Part shown: positions 17,440 through 27,088 of the stretch, piece after piece
Layout: each line of letters begins with the position of its first letter
Numbering within the stretch: the first letter of the stretch is position 1
Virus record (IMG/VR): IMGVR_UViG_3300046721_000068
Location: 1 to 28,498 of that record
Origin: a virus
Strand: one strand, 5' to 3'
Length of the DNA: 28,498 nucleotides
Position numbers and translations under genes: made by a program
Notes under the pieces: model-generated
Databases searched by the model: none
What the model saw: only the letters and a program-made list of their open reading frames with translations
Told to the model about the DNA's origin: nothing

Positions 17440-18996
17440 TCAGCCCCACAGCGCCAGGATTAGGGTGTTGCGGATCGAATTATATTCCATGCCGGTGATG
17501 ACCATGTTGCGGCCGGTATCGTAGCCGAAGCGGTCGATAATCACCCGGACGGTCTGGCCGAGGTCGAGCGACTGTAGCGCTTCCGGCGTCAGCGGCGTGT
17601 CGATCTCGATAAAGTCGCGCCGGACTTTGTAGAGCGCGAGGACGCGATCGGCCTCGGCCTGCGCGTCGGCTTGGTTCGCGAGGAGCGTCGTCACCTCTTT
17701 CTGAACCGCGAGCGGGTTCGCGATCTGGACGGAAGCGTCGCTCGAGATCACGTTCCGGTCCGCGACGGCGAGATAAGTCCGGTCGGTATCGCTGACGCTT
17801 CCGGCGACGGTCGTCCCGGTCAGGACCGTGTAGTTGTGGGCATAGGAAAGCGAGACGCGCCACGTCGGGACGCCTTTGTCTTGGTCGTTCGTCGAGAGGA
17901 AGCGGCAGTCGAGGATATCGAGGTCGCCGACCTCGGCGTCGGTGCCGAGACCAAACTTCCGCAGCGTCGTCGTCGGCGAGCTGCTCGGTGACTCCATCCG
18001 TTGCATACGGAACTGGCCGATCCGGTCGAAGCCGTACCACGCGCCAACGCTCCCGAGCACTTGATCGAGCGCCGCGGAAAAATTGGTCTCGTTCTCGAGC
18101 CAGATACCGACGACTGACGAGTTGTCGGCATCGAGCGCCGCGACGTCCGACATATTGACATCGCCGGCCGGGATGCCGCCGGTCCCGGTGACGATCGCAA
18201 GCGCGACCTGGGCGGCGGTACGGCCCGCGGCCCCGGGTCCCTGGTAGATGTCCGCGCTAACGCCGCCGGTCGGGCTCGTGCGGATACGGAAGTAACCGCC
18301 GGCCGGCCAGAGCCGGTATTGACCGGGCGACGGCTGGTTCGCGTCCATGTCTGCTTGATCGGTGTAGTTGGCGCCGCGGGAGAGTAGGGCGCCGGCATCG
18401 CGGACGGCGAGGACGTCTTGCACGGGACCGTCATTCACGATGAACTCGAGCCGGGCCGTATTCACGCAGACCACGGTAGCGTTGCCGACTTGCCCGTAGG
18501 CTTTCGACTTCGGCTTGCCCTTCAGATTGTCGGCGCCCTCGAGCCCGTCCGGGAGGACGTTGTCTCCGGCGAACTTGTCGGGCTGTAGGTTCTGCTGAAG
18601 GTCTTGGAGCCGGTCCTTTAGCCGGATGCGGACCGTCTCGAAGTCGAACAGCGCCTGTTCGACACGTCCGACAATAAACGGGACGAAGCTCGAATAGGGG
18701 TCTTGATCGTCGCCGAGTAGGATCGAACACGCCTGTCCGGCGAGGCCGAAGTCCCGGAGATTGTCGAGCTCGCCGTCCGGGTTCGCGATCGTCAAGTCGC
18801 CCTGACTGACGGCGCCAGCGCCGCCCGTCGTGTTCTTGCCGAAGATATCGCGGCGGAAGGTCGGGAGGTCTTTAAGCCGGTTGTCGTACGGTCCCGGCGC
18901 GGTCGGGTGAAGGTAGGGCTGCGAGCTAAAGCGGAGCGTCGTCACTGCCGCGGCGCCGGTATCATAAGCCGCGATCTCGACGAGGTAGGTTAGCAT
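17440..18996 (-). CDS. Baseplate hub-like tail protein (518 aa)
   Basis: The ATG at 18996 shares a base with the tape-measure stop. The first part (TLRFSSQPYLHPTAPGPYDN, then FRRDIFG...GDLTIANPDGELDNL) and VRIRLKDRLQDLQ are typical of tail proteins that follow the tape measure and form the hub. A middle part has AYGQVGNATVVCVNTARLEF, and the C-terminal third has ADAQAEADRVLALYKVRRDF, IEIDTPLTPEALQSLDLGQT and VRVIIDRFGY, the pattern of the T4 gp27-like hub barrel (path, linker, late strand). It probably closes the tube end below the tape measure. Confidence 0.8.
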   Translation of the reverse strand: MLTYLVEIAAYDTGAAAVTTLRFSSQPYLHPTAPGPYDNRLKDLPTFRRDIFGKNTTGGAGAVSQGDLTIANPDGELDNLRDFGLAGQACSILLGDDQDPYSSFVPFIVGRVEQALFDFETVRIRLKDRLQDLQQNLQPDKFAGDNVLPDGLEGADNLKGKPKSKAYGQVGNATVVCVNTARLEFIVNDGPVQDVLAVRDAGALLSRGANYTDQADMDANQPSPGQYRLWPAGGYFRIRTSPTGGVSADIYQGPGAAGRTAAQVALAIVTGTGGIPAGDVNMSDVAALDADNSSVVGIWLENETNFSAALDQVLGSVGAWYGFDRIGQFRMQRMESPSSSPTTTLRKFGLGTDAEVGDLDILDCRFLSTNDQDKGVPTWRVSLSYAHNYTVLTGTTVAGSVSDTDRTYLAVADRNVISSDASVQIANPLAVQKEVTTLLANQADAQAEADRVLALYKVRRDFIEIDTPLTPEALQSLDLGQTVRVIIDRFGYDTGRNMVITGMEYNSIRNTLILALWG

Positions 18997-21900
18997 CAGC
19001 CAAAGGCTTGTCGGCGGAGATCGGTTTCGATCGAGACGAGCGCGTCGTGCTGGGCATCAGTGTGCGCGGACATCCAAATATCAAACTGGATCGTCACCTC
19101 GGTTAAGAGGTGAATATATTCGTGTATCTGGAAAAGCTCGTCGAAGCAGCGGCTAAACCAATAATTCAGCGTGTCGCGGGTCGCGTTCACGATGTTGTAG
19201 AGGTTCTGGTTCCAGGCGACTTCGTTGCCGGTCAGATTATTGATGCTGCCGTTGATCGCGCTCAGCCACCAGTTGTTGTCGGAACGGAGCCACGAGACCT
19301 CGCCCGCGACCTGTCCGGAGTTACCGGTCGCGGCGACTTGGGCGACGATGGTGTTCGCCGCGGTATAGGTCGCCGCAATGTTGCTGACGCTCATGCTCCC
19401 GATCGCGCCGATTACGCCCTCGCCGGAAGTAATCGTCGCGGCCATGTTCAAGCCGTTGGCGCCGTACGTCGCCGCAATCATGGTATTCGCCGCGGCGAAA
19501 ATCGAGTTCGTGACGCTATTGGTGGCGCCGGCGATCATGTTGATGATGTTCACGGCGTTGTTGTTGGCGTTGCCGACCTCGGCGTTCCCCCACGCGCCAA
19601 TCGTCCCGCAGGTGGCATTCCCCCAAGCCGCTACGGTCCCGACGATCGCGTTCCCCCACGCTTCCGTAACCCGCCAGTTGGTATCTAGGCCCGCCCAGGT
19701 CGTGTAGTTGATAAGGTTGCTCCAATCGCGGATCGTGCGGATCGTCGCGTCGAGCATCGCCCAGGTGGTGTAGTTGATCGCGTTGCCCCAGGCGGCGACA
19801 GTATTGATAAGTGCGAGCGTCCAGTCGGCATTCGATTGCACTACCCAGGTCGAGTAGGCAGCGATCTGCTGATAGATCGCATTGCTCCAGGCGGCGTTGT
19901 CGCCGACGATCCATCCCGCCGAATTGTAGATCGCGGTCGCGACTTGCACGTCGCCGACTGTTATTCCGGCGAGCGATTGAAGGGCTGCGATCTGCGCGTC
20001 GCCTTTGGCGATAAGCGCGTTCGTCCCGGCCTGGGTCGTTGCCGCGACGTTCGCCGAGGCCGCCTCCGTCCTCGATCCGAGCAGCGCCGTGCTGTCATAG
20101 GCCGCCGCGACCGTGGTGTCGGTCGTCGCCTGCGCTATCGCCGCTTGCGACATTGCAACGTCTTTACCCTGCGCCAGCAAGGTCGTCGTCCCGGCCGCGG
20201 TCGTCGCGGTTAGCGTCGCGACCGCCTTGTCATTCCGGGACGCGACCTCGGCCGACGTCGCGTTCGCGGTCCACGCTAGTTGTGCGGTGTTGTCGTTCGC
20301 CGACGCGCGCGCTGCGTCGCTGGTCGCCGTCGCCGTGTCGATGATCTGTCGCGCCGAGGCATTGCTCTGCGCGACGATCGAGGCCGCGGTCGTGTTGGTC
20401 GTGTTGACGACCGCGGCGGCGTTTAGCTCGTTCTGCGCCGTCAGCGCCGCGGCCTGCTGCGCGTTGGCGGAGAGTAGCGCTCCGGCGTTCGCTTCCTGCT
20501 GGGCCAAGAGGTTCGAGGTGTCCTCTTTACTTCCGGCAATGAGGGTCCTCGCGTTGTCCTCGTTCGAGGCGAGTAATGCCATCGTCCCGCTTTTGGTCGC
20601 GGCGGTGCTGTAGTCGACCGCGCTCGCCGTGTTGTTCGCCGCGGCGGCGATCTGCGCTCCGGTGGTTAGCGTCGCGCCGGTCGCGAGGTTTAGGCCGGTC
20701 GTCGTCGCGCCGACGATCCTGGCCGAGCTCTCGATCCCGTTCTGGACGATCCCGTTCGTCGAGTCGATCGCGGCATTGACGATCCGTGTCGAACTCGCGC
20801 CGGTCTCGGTGACAATGTCCCGCGCGGTCGATCGCGCGTTGTCGACGATCGCCGCGTTCGTCGCGATCGTCGTCCCGATGATCTGCTGAGCGCTCGCGCT
20901 TGTCGCATCCGAGACGCCGTTCACGGTCGCGGTCGCGCCGGTCGTAATCGCCTCGACGATCGCGTTCGTGCTTGTCTGCTGGGCGTTCGGGACGCCGGGA
21001 AGCGCGGCGAGTGCGGCCTTCGCCTGCTCCCATTCCGCGGCGCCCGGCGCCGAGCTCGCGAACCATCCGACGAGCGCTTGCCGGAGCTCGTCCGCAATCG
21101 CGGTAATGCCTTGTAGCGCGTTGACGTCGCCGCCTTGGGCCAAGCCGAGCTGTGTCTGGAACTGCGCTCGAGACGCCTCCAAGCGGCTTTGCGGGCTGGT
21201 GTAGTCCGCGCCGCTCGCCTCCTGCGCGTTGAGGTATTGCCGTATCTGTAGACCGGCGGCGAGGATCGCGTTCGAGCGCTGCTGCGCGTCGGCCTGCGCC
21301 TGCGTCGCCGCGGCGGCGTCCTTCGTTGTCTGGACCATCCCGGCCGCTTCGTCGACCCACGCGGCAAAAGCCGGGTTGAGCTCGGCGAGCGTCTTGCGGG
21401 CGAGCTCAAGCTGGTCGTTATTCAGTCCTTGCAGGATCGTCAGCGCGGCGCGGTGCTCGGTCTCGGCGATAACGCCTTGCCGGTCGTCGCCGAGGTTTAG
21501 CGCCTTGGCATTCGCCTGCGCCGCTTGCCGGGCCTTATCCAAGTCGCGGAGCTGCGAGAGGAAGCCCTGCCCCGCGGCGGTGTCGTAGTCCTGCTGTATC
21601 TGGTAGGCGGCGGCTTGCCGGTTCGTCTCGAGCGTTAGCGCCGCGGTCGCGTCGGCCGCATCTTTCGCCGCCTTCGCGAGCGCCGGGAGATCGGTAAAGG
21701 CGAGAGTGCCAAAGCTGGCGATTACCTCGTCGAGCTGCGGTCCGGTGAGCTGAGTAAGCACGTTCTGAAGTTGTGCGTCGACCGTCCCGCCTAGCTTGTC
21801 TTGAACGGCCCGGCTTGCGCCGATCGCGGAGGCGTCGCGCGCCATCGTCTGGTAGTTGTCGAGGATGTCCTGAATGTTGTTGAGGAAGTCCTTCCCGGTC

Positions 21901-24900
21901 GCGGTGTTGAACGCCTTGTCGACCGCCTTTGCGAAGTCGTCATTCAGTCGCTTGGTCGCTTCGGCGAGCGCGGCATTTACCGGATCGAGCGATAGCCCGA
22001 ATTGCTCGGTCTGCGTCGTCAGTCCGTCAAACAGCGTAGTTATTTGGTTCATCGCCGTTTCAAACGGCCCGATTGCAACCGTACCCTGTTCGACCGTCGA
22101 GAACGCGCTATCGGCTGCGGTCTGGAGCTTGTCGTATGCCGCAGCAAAGTCGAGCGCCGCGTTGATCTGGTTCGGGTCGCTGATGTTGTGCAGGACTTTT
22201 TGGACGGTCTCGGAAACGCCGGTAAGGTTGTCCCGGAGGGCGATCAAGCCGGCCGCGATCGCGCTCGAGGCGTCGGCGAATTTATATTCCTGCCCCTGAT
22301 AGGAGAGCTTGATCCCGTCACGGCTACCGGCCTGGACGCTGACAGCGCCGCCGGGTAGTACCGCGCCGGGTATCGCGAGCGCCCGTGTAACCGCGGCTGC
22401 GAGCGTCTGGCCGATCTGGCTCGCGGTCGCATCGTTCTGCGCATTCCCTCCCGACTGCGCATTCATAATCTGGCCGGTCGCTAGATTGATAACGCCGCCG
22501 CTGGCTTGGTCCGGCTTCTTCGTCCCGCCGCCGAATAGACCGCCGAGACCGCCACCGGCAAGCCCGCCGATCAAGCCGCCGGCAATCGTCCCGACGACCG
22601 GGAAGAAGCTACCGAGCGCCGCTCCGGCGAGCGCTCCGCCGGCACTCCCGATCGTCCCGCCGGTCTTGTTCCCGCCGAGGACGGTGTTCAGTAGCGAGCC
22701 GGCGCCGAAGCCGAGGCCGGCGCCGCCGAGGAAGCTCCCGAAGGTTGAGCCGAAGACCGAGCCGGCCGGAGCGCTGAGTCCGAGGTCGGAAAGCTCGGTC
22801 GCCGATAGCCCGCCGTATTGAGCGAGCGGCCCCGATGCTTGAAATCCTAGATTGGTGCCGATGGTGTTGTTGAGGAAGTCGCCGGCCTTGCTGAACAACC
22901 CGCCGCCGCTGCCGCTGCCGCCGAAGATGTCCTTCAGCAAGCCGCCGCCTTGTAATAGCGTCCCGGTATTAAGTCCGCTGGTGCTGCTAGTACCGCTCGC
23001 GCCGCCGCCGCCTATGTTGCCGATCGCGCTTAGGGTCCCGCCGATCGAGCCGTACTGCGAGCCGACCGCGCCGAAGCCCAAGCCGGTAAGGACGGTCCCG
23101 ATTATCGGTTTGATGATCGAGCCGGTGACGAGGTTCTGTAGGATCGACGCGATAGTGGACTTCACCGTCGCGCCCCAGTCGGTGACTTTCTTCCCGCTGA
23201 AGATATCGCCGAAGGCGGTCCCGAGTGTCGTCACGGCGGTGTCGGCGACGGACTTGATCGCGTCGTTGATGCCCTGCTGCGCGCGGCTCGCCTCGGCGAG
23301 TTGGATGTTCGCTTGCGAGTACGCCTCGACACTTTTAAGGGTGGTGTTGTAGATCGCGTCCGAGGTCGTCAGCCCGCGCGCTTGCAGGTCTTGCTTGGTT
23401 TGGAGCAACAACACCTGGTGTTGTATTTCTTCGCTCGTCTGGCCTTGGAGTTTCGCTTCCAGTTCGAGCACCTGTATCTGGTTGGTGCGCTGGTTGTTCT
23501 GTTGCTCGAGCTGATAGGTCTGCTGCTGAACGTCGTTCTTTTTGATTAGCGCTCCGGTGACGGTCGTAATCGCCTCGGCCTGCTTAATTAGCGCCGGGTT
23601 GCCGGTGGCGATCGCTTTCGCGAGCGCGTCGTGCGTCGCCGTCGCGACTTGGTTCTCGAGGACCGCTTCATGCTCCGCCGCGGTTCCCTTCGCGGTGGCG
23701 TCGGCGAGACGGGTACTGGCGCCGAGCTGTAGTTCGAGCGCCGGTAATGCCTTTGCTCCGGCGGCGAGCGCCTCGGCCGCGCTGGCCTTTAGGATCGCCG
23801 CCTTTTTCTGCTCGACGTTCGCCGCGGTCCCGGTCATTACCGCATATTCGGCCTGCGCCTGCGCCGCCGCTTGCAGTCCCGGTATCTCGCCTTTGAGGAA
23901 CCCCTCGGTGGTCGCCAGGATGCCTTGTGTCTGCTTGTCTTCGTTCGCCGCGGTTAGCGCGAGTTGCGCGTCGTATGCCTTCAGCTTCGCCGTTACGGCA
24001 TTGGTGATGTAATCCTTTTTATAATCGCCCTCGAGGCCCTTCGACTCCGCCGCGAGTGTCGCCTCGGTACGGGCCTGGACCTCCGCGAGCGCCCGTCCTT
24101 GCTTGCCGAGCTCTTGATTATAGAGGGCGAGGTCGGAGCGCTGCTTGGCGACGATATTCGCCTGCGCCTCGCTGGTATCTTGCTTAGTCCGCGGAGCGGT
24201 AGTGCTGACGTCCGGGAGGTAGGCGGGCGTTCCCGGCTTCGATGTCAGTCCGCTGGCGAGGCCGGAGGCGAGCTGCTCGGCAACGGCGCCGGCCTTTGCG
24301 GTGGAGGCCGGATTTTGCGCGCGCTCGAAATTATCCATCGCGATCGCAGCTTCCTTCGCTGTCGTCGTCGCGAGAATGGTCTTGAACGCCTCAAACTCCT
24401 TCCCGGTAAACTCCGACCAGACGACCTCGAGCTGCCCCAGCAGATTGTCACCAGCCGCCTTATAGGCTGGCTGACGACTACCGAGCGCCTGGGCGATGCC
24501 ATAAGCGCCGGACTTGGGATTTACCGCTGTCGGGTCTAGTGAAGACCCGCCGCCGCTCTCGACCGCGAGCGCAGCGACGATCCCGGTCGCGTGCTCGAGC
24601 GCGAGACCTTTATCGAGGAAGAACTGGATCCCCGTCCGGATACTATCCGCTCCGGCGCCGGTCGCTGTCGGTGGGCCGAGATTAGTACCACCCGGAGCGC
24701 CGGCCGCTTGTGCCGCCGCCGCGGCTCGCGCGCCGGTCGGATCGTCGCCACTCCATTGCGGTAGGTGGGCCTTGCCCCACTCCCACAGGTCTTTGAGAAG
24801 CTGCAGTTCATGCGCGGTGTTCTTGATTAGGATATTAAATTCTTTGAAGAAATCTGTGACGATCGCAAGAGCTGGCGGGCCGAACTCGTCGAGGAACTTG

Positions 24901-26156
24901 TTCCACGTCGTCCTCAGCTCGGCTAGGGCTTCCTGCCACGGGGTCTTCATCGCGGCGGCGACGCCAGCAAACTTATTGGCGAGCGCCTGTAGTTCGATTA
25001 TTCGCTGCGCGTTCTCGTCGCGCGCCATCTTGCTCGCGTTGATCGCGGCCCGCTCGGCATCGGTGTATTTGACGCCTAGCGTCTCGTTGAGTTTCTCGAG
25101 CTCGTCCGCGGTGCCGGAAGCCGCCTTGCCGAGCTTCTCCGCCCAACTGACGATATCGCCGCCGCGGTTCGCGGTGATGTTCTCCGCCAGTTGCGCGAGG
25201 AACGGGACCGATCCCTTGTCGAGCCCCGGAATAGTGATAAGGGCCTTGATCGCCGCCTGCGCCTTGTCGGCTTCCTCGCCTTGGTTGATGAGCGCTTTGG
25301 TGGCGACGTTGAGTTTCTCGGCCGTTATCTCGCCAGTATCGCCCATCGTCTTTAGGGTGATGTTGTAGTCTTTAAGCCGCTGGTTATCGGCCGCGGCGTG
25401 GGCGGCGAGGTAGGCGATCGCGGCGCCGAGCGCGACGACCCCGGCAATCGCAGCGGTCGTCGGCGTGATGAAGTTGCCGAGCATCCCGATCGCTTCACCG
25501 AAGGCGCCTTTAAGGCCACCGGGACCGGAAGCGGCGAAGGACAGGTGATTGAGCTGCGCCGTCAGCGCTTGTGTCGGTGGTGCGCCGAGGGCGAGTTGCT
25601 CGGCCATCGAGCGGATCGAGTGAAACGCCGACTGACCTTGTACCGATAGGCCCTCGTGCGCCTTGGCGTTGTCGTTGACCGCGTGGGTGCTGGCGTTCAA
25701 TCCCGCGGTCTGCTGGGCGCCGGTCTTCACGTTGTCGTTCGTCGCTCGGCCGACCTTGTCGAGCGCCGCGATCTGCGAATCGTAGCGCGCATTGACAAGC
25801 GCGAGCGCGCGCGCCCGATCCTCCGCGGTTCCGACTTGGTCACGCTCGAAGGCGGCGACACGAGCGAGGCCGGCTTGATACTGCTGATTGATCCGCGTCG
25901 CTCGGTCCATCGAGGCGAGCCAGCGGTCGAGCTGCGCCGTCGAGGTCTGTTTCGCCGCGGCGCCGCGCGTCTCGACGACGGTAACTTCCGCGACCGAAGC
26001 CGCCATCTCGTCATTGGCGGCTGTTACTTTCGCCGCGGAGGCTGCGGCCTTGTCCTCGGTGTCGGCGAGCTTCGCGAGCGCGGCGTCGGCCTGCTTGACT
26101 TGCTCGACGCCGTCGACTTGCAGCTTGTAAAGCGCAGTGGTGACGATATCAGCCAC
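18996..26156 (-). CDS. Tape-measure protein with lysozyme-like domain and long 11-residue repeats (2386 aa)
   Basis: The start is GTG at 26156 with GAGG seven bases upstream. Residues about 1-220 are coiled coil (ALYKLQVDGVEQVKQADAAL), followed by a hydrophobic segment at about 230-252. Residues about 500-617 look like a phage tail lysozyme: an early helix with IQFFLDKGLALEHATGIVAA, then ESGGGSSLDPTAVN and SGAYGIAQALGSRQPAY, with E in AVESGG as the likely acid. Coiled coil continues, then a Gly-rich hydrophobic region at about 1155-1215. From about 1760 to 2190 the chain is an 11-residue repeat. A helical tape of this size would set a tail of roughly 350 nm at 0.15 nm per residue, unless the repeats serve another role. 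Confidence 0.92.
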   Translation of the reverse strand: MADIVTTALYKLQVDGVEQVKQADAALAKLADTEDKAAASAAKVTAANDEMAASVAEVTVVETRGAAAKQTSTAQLDRWLASMDRATRINQQYQAGLARVAAFERDQVGTAEDRARALALVNARYDSQIAALDKVGRATNDNVKTGAQQTAGLNASTHAVNDNAKAHEGLSVQGQSAFHSIRSMAEQLALGAPPTQALTAQLNHLSFAASGPGGLKGAFGEAIGMLGNFITPTTAAIAGVVALGAAIAYLAAHAAADNQRLKDYNITLKTMGDTGEITAEKLNVATKALINQGEEADKAQAAIKALITIPGLDKGSVPFLAQLAENITANRGGDIVSWAEKLGKAASGTADELEKLNETLGVKYTDAERAAINASKMARDENAQRIIELQALANKFAGVAAAMKTPWQEALAELRTTWNKFLDEFGPPALAIVTDFFKEFNILIKNTAHELQLLKDLWEWGKAHLPQWSGDDPTGARAAAAAQAAGAPGGTNLGPPTATGAGADSIRTGIQFFLDKGLALEHATGIVAALAVESGGGSSLDPTAVNPKSGAYGIAQALGSRQPAYKAAGDNLLGQLEVVWSEFTGKEFEAFKTILATTTAKEAAIAMDNFERAQNPASTAKAGAVAEQLASGLASGLTSKPGTPAYLPDVSTTAPRTKQDTSEAQANIVAKQRSDLALYNQELGKQGRALAEVQARTEATLAAESKGLEGDYKKDYITNAVTAKLKAYDAQLALTAANEDKQTQGILATTEGFLKGEIPGLQAAAQAQAEYAVMTGTAANVEQKKAAILKASAAEALAAGAKALPALELQLGASTRLADATAKGTAAEHEAVLENQVATATHDALAKAIATGNPALIKQAEAITTVTGALIKKNDVQQQTYQLEQQNNQRTNQIQVLELEAKLQGQTSEEIQHQVLLLQTKQDLQARGLTTSDAIYNTTLKSVEAYSQANIQLAEASRAQQGINDAIKSVADTAVTTLGTAFGDIFSGKKVTDWGATVKSTIASILQNLVTGSIIKPIIGTVLTGLGFGAVGSQYGSIGGTLSAIGNIGGGGASGTSSTSGLNTGTLLQGGGLLKDIFGGSGSGGGLFSKAGDFLNNTIGTNLGFQASGPLAQYGGLSATELSDLGLSAPAGSVFGSTFGSFLGGAGLGFGAGSLLNTVLGGNKTGGTIGSAGGALAGAALGSFFPVVGTIAGGLIGGLAGGGLGGLFGGGTKKPDQASGGVINLATGQIMNAQSGGNAQNDATASQIGQTLAAAVTRALAIPGAVLPGGAVSVQAGSRDGIKLSYQGQEYKFADASSAIAAGLIALRDNLTGVSETVQKVLHNISDPNQINAALDFAAAYDKLQTAADSAFSTVEQGTVAIGPFETAMNQITTLFDGLTTQTEQFGLSLDPVNAALAEATKRLNDDFAKAVDKAFNTATGKDFLNNIQDILDNYQTMARDASAIGASRAVQDKLGGTVDAQLQNVLTQLTGPQLDEVIASFGTLAFTDLPALAKAAKDAADATAALTLETNRQAAAYQIQQDYDTAAGQGFLSQLRDLDKARQAAQANAKALNLGDDRQGVIAETEHRAALTILQGLNNDQLELARKTLAELNPAFAAWVDEAAGMVQTTKDAAAATQAQADAQQRSNAILAAGLQIRQYLNAQEASGADYTSPQSRLEASRAQFQTQLGLAQGGDVNALQGITAIADELRQALVGWFASSAPGAAEWEQAKAALAALPGVPNAQQTSTNAIVEAITTGATATVNGVSDATSASAQQIIGTTIATNAAIVDNARSTARDIVTETGASSTRIVNAAIDSTNGIVQNGIESSARIVGATTTGLNLATGATLTTGAQIAAAANNTASAVDYSTAATKSGTMALLASNEDNARTLIAGSKEDTSNLLAQQEANAGALLSANAQQAAALTAQNELNAAAVVNTTNTTAASIVAQSNASARQIIDTATATSDAARASANDNTAQLAWTANATSAEVASRNDKAVATLTATTAAGTTTLLAQGKDVAMSQAAIAQATTDTTVAAAYDSTALLGSRTEAASANVAATTQAGTNALIAKGDAQIAALQSLAGITVGDVQVATAIYNSAGWIVGDNAAWSNAIYQQIAAYSTWVVQSNADWTLALINTVAAWGNAINYTTWAMLDATIRTIRDWSNLINYTTWAGLDTNWRVTEAWGNAIVGTVAAWGNATCGTIGAWGNAEVGNANNNAVNIINMIAGATNSVTNSIFAAANTMIAATYGANGLNMAATITSGEGVIGAIGSMSVSNIAATYTAANTIVAQVAATGNSGQVAGEVSWLRSDNNWWLSAINGSINNLTGNEVAWNQNLYNIVNATRDTLNYWFSRCFDELFQIHEYIHLLTEVTIQFDIWMSAHTDAQHDALVSIETDLRRQAFG
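19586..20880 (-). repeat. Eleven-residue (33-bp) repeats coding region of the tape-measure gene
   Basis: Reading the protein in steps of 11 puts an aliphatic pair in register many times: II-GTT, IV-DNA, IV-TET, IV-NAA, IV-QNG, IV-GAT and so on to LI-AKG, about 27 units, with one 3-residue phase skip. After a further phase shift, Trp (or Tyr, Met, Gly) recurs every 11 residues for ten units, seven of which are Trp. On the DNA this shows as TTCCCCCA at 33-bp steps near 19584, 19617 and 19650. An 11-residue periodicity is the hendecad of right-handed or straight coiled coils. Confidence 0.85.
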
Positions 26157-26165
26157 GGGACGACC

Positions 26166-27088
26166 TCATCGCCGCCGGATCGACGGCGGCGGCGGGAGTG
26201 TGCGATGCGGGATCGAGGCAATACTCGGCGATGCCCGCGCCTGCTGTTGCTGCCGGTTCTCGGCGTTGCTCTTTTCGGCGAGGATCGCCGCGCGGAGCAT
26301 CCCGAGCTGAACTAAGGCGCGCGCTTCCCACGGCTCGATCCGGCCGACGCCGGCTAGGTCTTGCCACGCGCGGAGCGCTTCCCAGGTGACGACCGGCGGG
26401 CCGAAGCCGGAGACCGGCAGGCCGAGCGATATCTCTTGAAACCAGCGCCACAAATACTCGATCGCGTCCGGGAACTCCGGACCGCTGACGGTGACGAGCG
26501 CCGGTAGCTGCACCGGCTGTTCGCGCCGGCCGGGCGCGCGGAAGGCGGCGGGTATCTTCGCCCACTGTGCCGCGGCCGACTCGGCGTGGTCGCGCTCCGT
26601 CGCGCCATCTACGGCTTGTCGGTTAGCTCGGAACTCGTCCTCGGCCCATTCAATGAGGTCGGCGACGAGACCGGCGTAAAATTTCCGCGGTCTGCTTGAA
26701 ACTCGAACACTTGGTCTCTGATCCACCGCGCCGCCGGAGCGCCGTATATCCGGCGCGCGTTCTCCGGCGAGAACGGGACTTCGAGCGGCGTCCCATCGAG
26801 GCTGAGCAACTTCCAGTCGGCCGTGAGCGAGACTAGAAGGTCGGTCTCGTTCGCCTCGGTTTCCTCCGGCGTGATCGTCGCCCGGCCGCGCATTTTATAA
26901 ATCCGGCGCAGGACTTCCCGGTCGTGCCGGCGCGCGATCTGCGAGTCACCGGAATAGACGTCGACCCAGCCTTCGTTGCCGGCTGGATCGCGGAGCGGCT
27001 GGCGGGTCTGGTAGTGTAGCAAGATCATCCGCTGCGGCTTGTCGACCGCGAGCGATAGAGCGCCGAGCGCTTCTTCGATACTAAGCAT
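26166..27088 (-). CDS. Tail assembly chaperone, long frameshift product (G-T type, about 307 aa)
   Basis: Reading starts at 27088 in the G frame and slips back one base at 26678-26684, continuing in the -1 frame to TGA at 26166-26168. The two frames overlap for 118 bp, and the second has no strong ribosome site for the ATG at 26726. After the slip the chain reads YAGLVADLIEWAEDEFRANR, then AAQWAKIPAAFRAPG and PDAIEYLWRWFQEISLGLPV, ending in a Pro/Gln-rich tail. In lambda and many siphophages the G and G-T proteins load the tape measure, and the long form binds tail tube subunits. The place between tube protein and tape measure fits. The stop overlaps the tape-measure ribosome site. Confidence 0.85.
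26609..27088 (-). CDS. Tail assembly chaperone, short product (G type, 159 aa)
   Basis: ATG at 27088 follows GGAG about eight bases upstream. The protein begins MLSIEEALGALSLAVDKPQR, with MILLHYQTRQPLRDPAGNEG, DREVLRRIYKMRGRATITPE and ENARRIYGAPAARWIRDQVF, and ends in a short tail specific to this form (after the slip site, to ELTDKP). This is the normal product if no frameshift occurs and is expected to be made in excess. Helps tail assembly around the tape measure and is not part of the virion, by analogy with lambda G. Confidence 0.85.
   Translation of the reverse strand: MLSIEEALGALSLAVDKPQRMILLHYQTRQPLRDPAGNEGWVDVYSGDSQIARRHDREVLRRIYKMRGRATITPEETEANETDLLVSLTADWKLLSLDGTPLEVPFSPENARRIYGAPAARWIRDQVFEFQADRGNFTPVSSPTSLNGPRTSSELTDKP
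26678..26684 (-). other. Programmed -1 ribosomal frameshift site
   Basis: On the - strand the sequence in the G frame is GGA AAT TTT ACG, containing the heptamer A_AAT_TTT, a perfect X_XXY_YYZ slippery site. Slipping by -1 gives AAA TTT, then TAC GCC GGT, which enters the second frame exactly. The tail chaperone context is where such sites are conserved across long-tailed phages. Confidence 0.85.

Follow-up and report, generated by a model that had tools for sequence, protein, structure and literature searches.

The C-terminal quarter of the tape measure protein (TMP) of an uncultured metagenomic phage consists mostly of a proline-free lattice of about 50 eleven-residue units (hendecads), the length of which varies among related TMPs. 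This region is probably a tip-side hendecad rod, that is, a spacer of variable length that would act as both a ruler and a removable plug. The window, i.e., the entire stretch of DNA analysed here, is the complete IMG/VR record IMGVR_UViG_3300046721_000068, a linear fragment of 28,498 nt.

The Tape Measure Protein and Its Gene Neighborhood

The TMP is encoded on the minus strand (18996..26156) by an ORF of 2386 amino acids with a GTG start; the window base for residue i is 26156-3(i-1). The TMP_2 family (PF06791) matches within the N-terminal 480 amino acids (residues 179-361, E=4e-11), and the lysozyme part has a match (E=4e-14) to phrog_9570, which is annotated as 'tail length tape measure protein'. 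The gene order in this locus is tail tube (PF18906), chaperone (phrog_313), TMP and a downstream tail protein (phrog_8917). By family homology as well as gene order, the protein is assigned as a siphovirus TMP. The gene for the tail assembly chaperone G/GT (26166..27088, minus strand; phrog_313) contains a slippery heptamer, A AAT TTT, at 26684-26678, which is in frame according to a frame check, and an overlapping -1 frame extension that stops about 10 bases short of the TMP start; a programmed frameshift, in the same arrangement as in lambda G/GT, is likely.

The TMP also includes a tail lysozyme module (24177..24719, minus strand; residues 480-660) in which Phage_lysozyme2 (PF18013) matches at about residues 510-630 (E=2e-12). 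This cell wall-degrading module is swapped among close relatives: the TMP of contig L004 contains a VanY-type peptidase (PF02557; 4566-5078), and in L003 (4989-5651), L010, L015 and L016 the same position is occupied by sequence without a domain match. A glycine-rich hydrophobic stretch is located at residues 1000-1215. Elsewhere in the window, there is a gene for a phage-type integrase (PF00589; 6857-8008, plus strand), so the phage is probably temperate. Comparison of the full-length TMP with cultured phages produced matches to the lysozyme domain only (Twort-like and Bacillus phages), and scans of the genome collection with the downstream tail protein and with the TMP found no relatives.

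The Eleven-Residue Lattice

The lattice (19317..20972, minus strand) extends over residues 1729-2280 and was recovered by a lattice HMM as a single run of 552 residues, or about 50 units, without a phase slip; this HMM was trained on the TMP family itself, so the independent evidence comes from block-wise Fourier analysis and shuffle tests. Within residues 1759-2191, the autocorrelation of hydrophobicity is 0.34 at lag 11, 0.37 at lag 22, 0.25 at lag 33 and 0.24 at lag 44 (z from 5 to 8); the lag-11 value is reached by no shuffle, and lag 7 is flat. Over the complete lattice, the lag-11 autocorrelation has z=7.4 and was reached in 0 of 3000 shuffles performed inside 22-mers, a null model that keeps the local composition. 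The 11/3 harmonic is significant in all three blocks tested (z=6.3, 6.7 and 11.6) and the 7/2 harmonic stays at background; a control region of equal length from the same TMP (residues 1000-1551) gives no signal at 11. These results support a hendecad (11/3) and not a heptad pattern. Thus, both the hendecad pattern and the autocorrelation peak at 11 proposed in a sequence-only reading of this DNA are borne out, with additional peaks at the multiples of 11. The same reading counted about 37 units at 19586-20880 (residues 1759-2191), in the C-terminal half of the protein; the repeat is real but the count was too low, and the region actually lies in the C-terminal quarter.

Proline is absent from the 552 lattice residues, against 13.4 expected (P about 1e-6), and is nearly absent in all relatives too. 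N/Q/S/T are abundant in the lattice, and charged residues are few. The lattice stops about 106 residues before the C-terminus of the TMP, where it is followed by a C-terminal cap (18999..19316, minus strand; residues 2281-2386) that ends with LRRQAFG and is found in the whole clade, as indicated by the alignment and by L076.

The lattice comprises four blocks, all on the minus strand, that differ in the residues marking the units. In block 1 (20598..20960; residues 1733-1853), aliphatic residues occupy phases 4/5. The Ala-rich block 2 (19971..20597; residues 1854-2062) has aliphatics at phases 7/8, with one aliphatic pair per 11 residues and a strong period-11 signal. Block 3 (19575..19970; residues 2063-2194) contains a ladder of Trp at phase 5, along with Ile/Val at phases 2, 9 and 10 and a partial 22-residue superperiod, and the lattice continues through the Gly/Asn-rich block 4 (19317..19574; residues 2195-2280). 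Within a block, the angle of the hydrophobic face hardly changes, but from one block to the next the face rotates (85, 1, 187 and 229 degrees); the change from aliphatics to Trp is such a rotation, from about 1 to 187 degrees, and leaves the 11-residue lattice uninterrupted. The Trp residues of the ladder (2090, 2112, 2123, 2145, 2167, 2178 and 2189) are spaced by 22, 11, 22, 22, 11 and 11 residues, that is, they take seven of ten successive lattice positions in one phase (P=1.5e-5), exactly as had been noticed from the sequence. In residues 2106-2150 (19707-19841), a 22-residue superperiod of the form INYTTWAxLD is apparent, with Trp alternating between two phases and lag 22 exceeding lag 11.

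The units themselves are degenerate. Near-neighbor units are 20-24% identical at the protein level, neighboring units are 42% identical in DNA compared to a null of 33%, and a search of the DNA for a 33-bp tandem array found none. The dN/dS ratio between the window TMP and that of L010, the closest relative, is about 0.2-0.4, which indicates purifying selection. This combination of degenerate units, the lack of a 33-bp array and the low dN/dS implies that the lattice is maintained at the protein level. Conservation against L010 is higher at core positions of the lattice than at other positions in block 1 (0.88 vs 0.64), slightly higher in block 2 (0.79 vs 0.70) and not higher in block 3 (0.60 vs 0.65).

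Relatives and Length Variation

The viral contigs L003, L004, L010, L014 and L016 (L014 being a near copy of L016), L015, L018, L019 and L076 encode related TMPs that share this C-terminal end. All of these except L076 were included in the lattice HMM scan, and each scanned protein possesses the lattice, with lengths from 335 to 552 residues and, in some cases, one or two phase slips. Several of the length differences correspond to whole units. The L004 protein differs from the window protein or L010 by two indels of exactly 55 amino acids, with flanks that are roughly 65-80% identical; L003 differs from L016 and L019 by an indel of exactly 11 amino acids; and L010 and L015 show a diagonal shift of 55 amino acids. 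Among pairwise diagonal shifts of at least 5 residues, multiples of 11 account for 13 of 30 in the repeat part compared to 9 of 80 in the N-terminal part, although these counts share ancestry and hence are not independent. Other indels, of 4, 6, 124 and about 288 residues, are not multiples of 11, so the possibility that all indels consist of whole units was rejected; these indels count against the hendecad rod.

The ladder varies as well: the window protein and L010 both have seven Trp, L004 has four and the remaining proteins have three; the last three are invariant in the seven-sequence alignment. In the L076 protein, the Trp ladder is missing, as are about 288 residues. Its TMP frame holds one in-frame TAA (L076:7192), either a mutation or an assembly error, and the ladder is missing from the part after this stop. 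The switch of the hydrophobic face from aliphatics to Trp is present in L010, whereas in the short relative L016 the Trp residues keep to the face of the aliphatics before them (63 to 70 degrees). The switch is a feature of the closest relatives and not of the short ones, and thus is not a conserved property. The register change singled out in the sequence-only reading is therefore a real rotation, shared with L010, but its status as a special, conserved property is not supported.

Some forty additional TMP-like proteins, linked through the downstream gene, were also compared, and no long 11-residue run was seen outside this clade. Shorter runs are present in the cyanophages Microcystis phage yong1 and Leptolyngbya phage Lsp-JY19, and there are a few isolated short windows elsewhere. 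In the cyanophage TMPs L008 (residues 1750-1937) and L009 (1651-1849 of the long ORF), a short run of LGxxLxxLAxx follows the same conserved domain.

Comparison with Known Repeats

TMPs with tandem 11-residue units that carry Trp or Phe and change in number through duplication and loss have been described in Clostridium botulinum prophages and Staphylococcus phages (Belcaid et al., 2011; PMC3271669). The window TMP resembles these proteins in its tandem units of period 11, the aromatic residue at a fixed position and the changing number of units, as manifest in the indels of 55, 55 and 11 amino acids and the range of lattice lengths. It differs in that aliphatics mark most of the units and Trp only the last part; furthermore, the seven Trp spread over ten positions do not form the seven consecutive [FW]x(10) of pattern 1 of Belcaid et al. 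Apart from the lysozyme domain, the search of the phage collection gave no sequence similarity to these phages. The repeat had been considered far longer than a normal coiled coil, and indeed it is long, but it is not the longest, given that a published C. botulinum prophage TMP has 825 repeat residues, or 75 units (PMC3271669).

Other comparisons are more distant. The TMP of TP901-1 (Mahony et al., 2016; PMC5099701) also contains 11-residue repeats, which carry Trp/Phe, but the spacing is a mixture of 11 and 18 and the host is Gram-positive, in contrast to the uniform 11 observed here. The TMP of HFTV1 (PMC12494034) is likewise a long helical tape, a structure that is predicted for the window protein, and its C-terminus is located in the baseplate hub; however, this protein is far shorter (341 amino acids) and is a solved hexameric coiled coil. 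The H protein of phiX174 (PMC7354561) shares the hendecads and the amide-rich surface, but its repeat is short (three hendecads plus heptads), the phage is tailless, a decameric tube has been shown, and there is no sequence match to the present region. Altogether, the window TMP is a clear further example of the known TMPs with 11-residue repeats, with a mainly aliphatic marker, and is not a new kind of system.

A Probable Helical Spacer of Variable Length

Eleven residues make three full turns of a helix, so units could be gained or lost without disturbing the hydrophobic stripe and the tape could change its length. Such addition of whole units would explain why part of the observed length changes are multiples of 11. 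Each chain is expected to fold into a very long alpha-helix that is free of proline and carries an 11/3 hydrophobic stripe, and the chains, three or six by analogy, would pack together along this stripe to give a nearly straight rod. During assembly, the rod would fill the tail tube, with its length counting the tube rings, and at infection it would exit before the DNA does. In TP901-1, tails become shorter when deletions are made within the TMP repeats (PMC5099701). The HFTV1 TMP, a hexameric coiled coil, spans the tube and has its C-terminus at the baseplate (PMC12494034), and in lambda a three-helix coiled coil is formed by the C-terminus of gpH within the tip (PMC10721106). The C-terminal end of the TMP is at the tip in both of these phages, and the repeat segment most likely lies near the tip end.

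Structure prediction is consistent with a helical region but supports it weakly. AlphaFold monomer models covered 686 and 335 residues. The model from seven sequences is helical nearly throughout, with single helices of 92 and 167 residues and no strand (mean pLDDT 43), and a second run for the Trp part is also helical and contains no strand (mean pLDDT 36). Globular domains, which had been named as the outcome that would contradict a rod, are not predicted, but at such pLDDT values the models do not firmly exclude anything. A profile search against the PDB (E<=1) gave no sequence match to solved structures. Gly, Asn and Thr, which are poor formers of isolated helices, are common in the lattice and most of all in blocks 3-4; this counts against a helical rod.

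The Trp Ladder and Alternative Roles of the Repeat Region

The Trp ladder appears to be a local, variable form of this lattice toward the tip. That the ladder differs in length among relatives and is missing from L076 argues against an essential role, and helix-helix packing or chaperone docking would be the likeliest functions, rather than an essential function of its own. The sequence-only reading suggested that the ladder could pack against the inner tube wall or the host membrane. Docking, in which the ladder would be a track for the G/GT chaperone that is released as tube rings take its place, is possible but less likely than not. It was proposed for lactococcal phage p2 from the 11-residue spacing of aromatics, as relayed in PMC3271669 and PMC5099701, and a G/GT chaperone with a slippery site is encoded just upstream of the TMP; however, one whole repeat of the TP901-1 TMP could be replaced by alanines without effect (PMC5099701), and the ladder shrinks from seven to three Trp and is missing in L076. 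Docking is compatible with the helical spacer, and both can hold.

It is considerably less probable that, after ejection, the hendecad region becomes an alpha-helical barrel that conducts DNA across the periplasm in the manner of phiX174 H, with Trp at the membrane interface. The piloting tube of H is built of hendecads and heptads and is lined by amide and guanidinium side chains (PMC7354561), and the present region is similarly rich in N/Q/S/T and poor in charge, with a Trp cluster near the C-terminal end. Nevertheless, the PDB profile search retrieved no relative, the H tube domain included; L076 dispenses with the ladder and about 288 residues, and in other relatives the ladder ranges from 3 to 7 Trp; and the glycine-rich stretch at residues 1000-1215, judging by composition, is the better membrane candidate. 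Even more doubtful is a combination of the two functions, whereby the rod would serve as a ruler within the tail and, once ejected, as a helical, amide-lined conduit that crosses the periplasm, the face switch at the Trp block representing the opening of a packed rod into a membrane-associated channel.

A different fold, with the 11-residue unit as a rung of a beta-solenoid or as an amphipathic, lipid-binding segment of the synuclein type, seems very unlikely. The single aliphatic pair per unit in block 2 and the beta-branched, Gly/Asn-rich Trp block would fit this fold, but each block tested has a significant 11/3 harmonic, neither model contains a strand, and the region is Ala-rich and free of proline. 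Finally, that the pattern is a by-product of recent tandem duplication of DNA, without structural selection, can be practically dismissed: some indels measure exactly 165 bp or 33 bp, but there is no 33-bp array, neighboring units are 42% identical in DNA compared to a null of 33%, and dN/dS is low.

Implications for Tail Length

Most tape measures have no visible unit, whereas here the unit is clear, and the clade provides a clean natural series of lengths, from about 30 to 50 units, with ladders of 0 to 7 Trp and some insertions of exactly five units. An insertion of 55 residues would span 82.5 A at 1.5 A per residue, which, as an inference from this one pair of indels and not as evidence, would be close to two tail tube rings, the published thickness of a ring being 38.5-42.8 A (PMC8718954). 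The ruler function proposed for the helical spacer is thus directly testable: if it is true, tail length in this clade would change stepwise with the number of hendecads.
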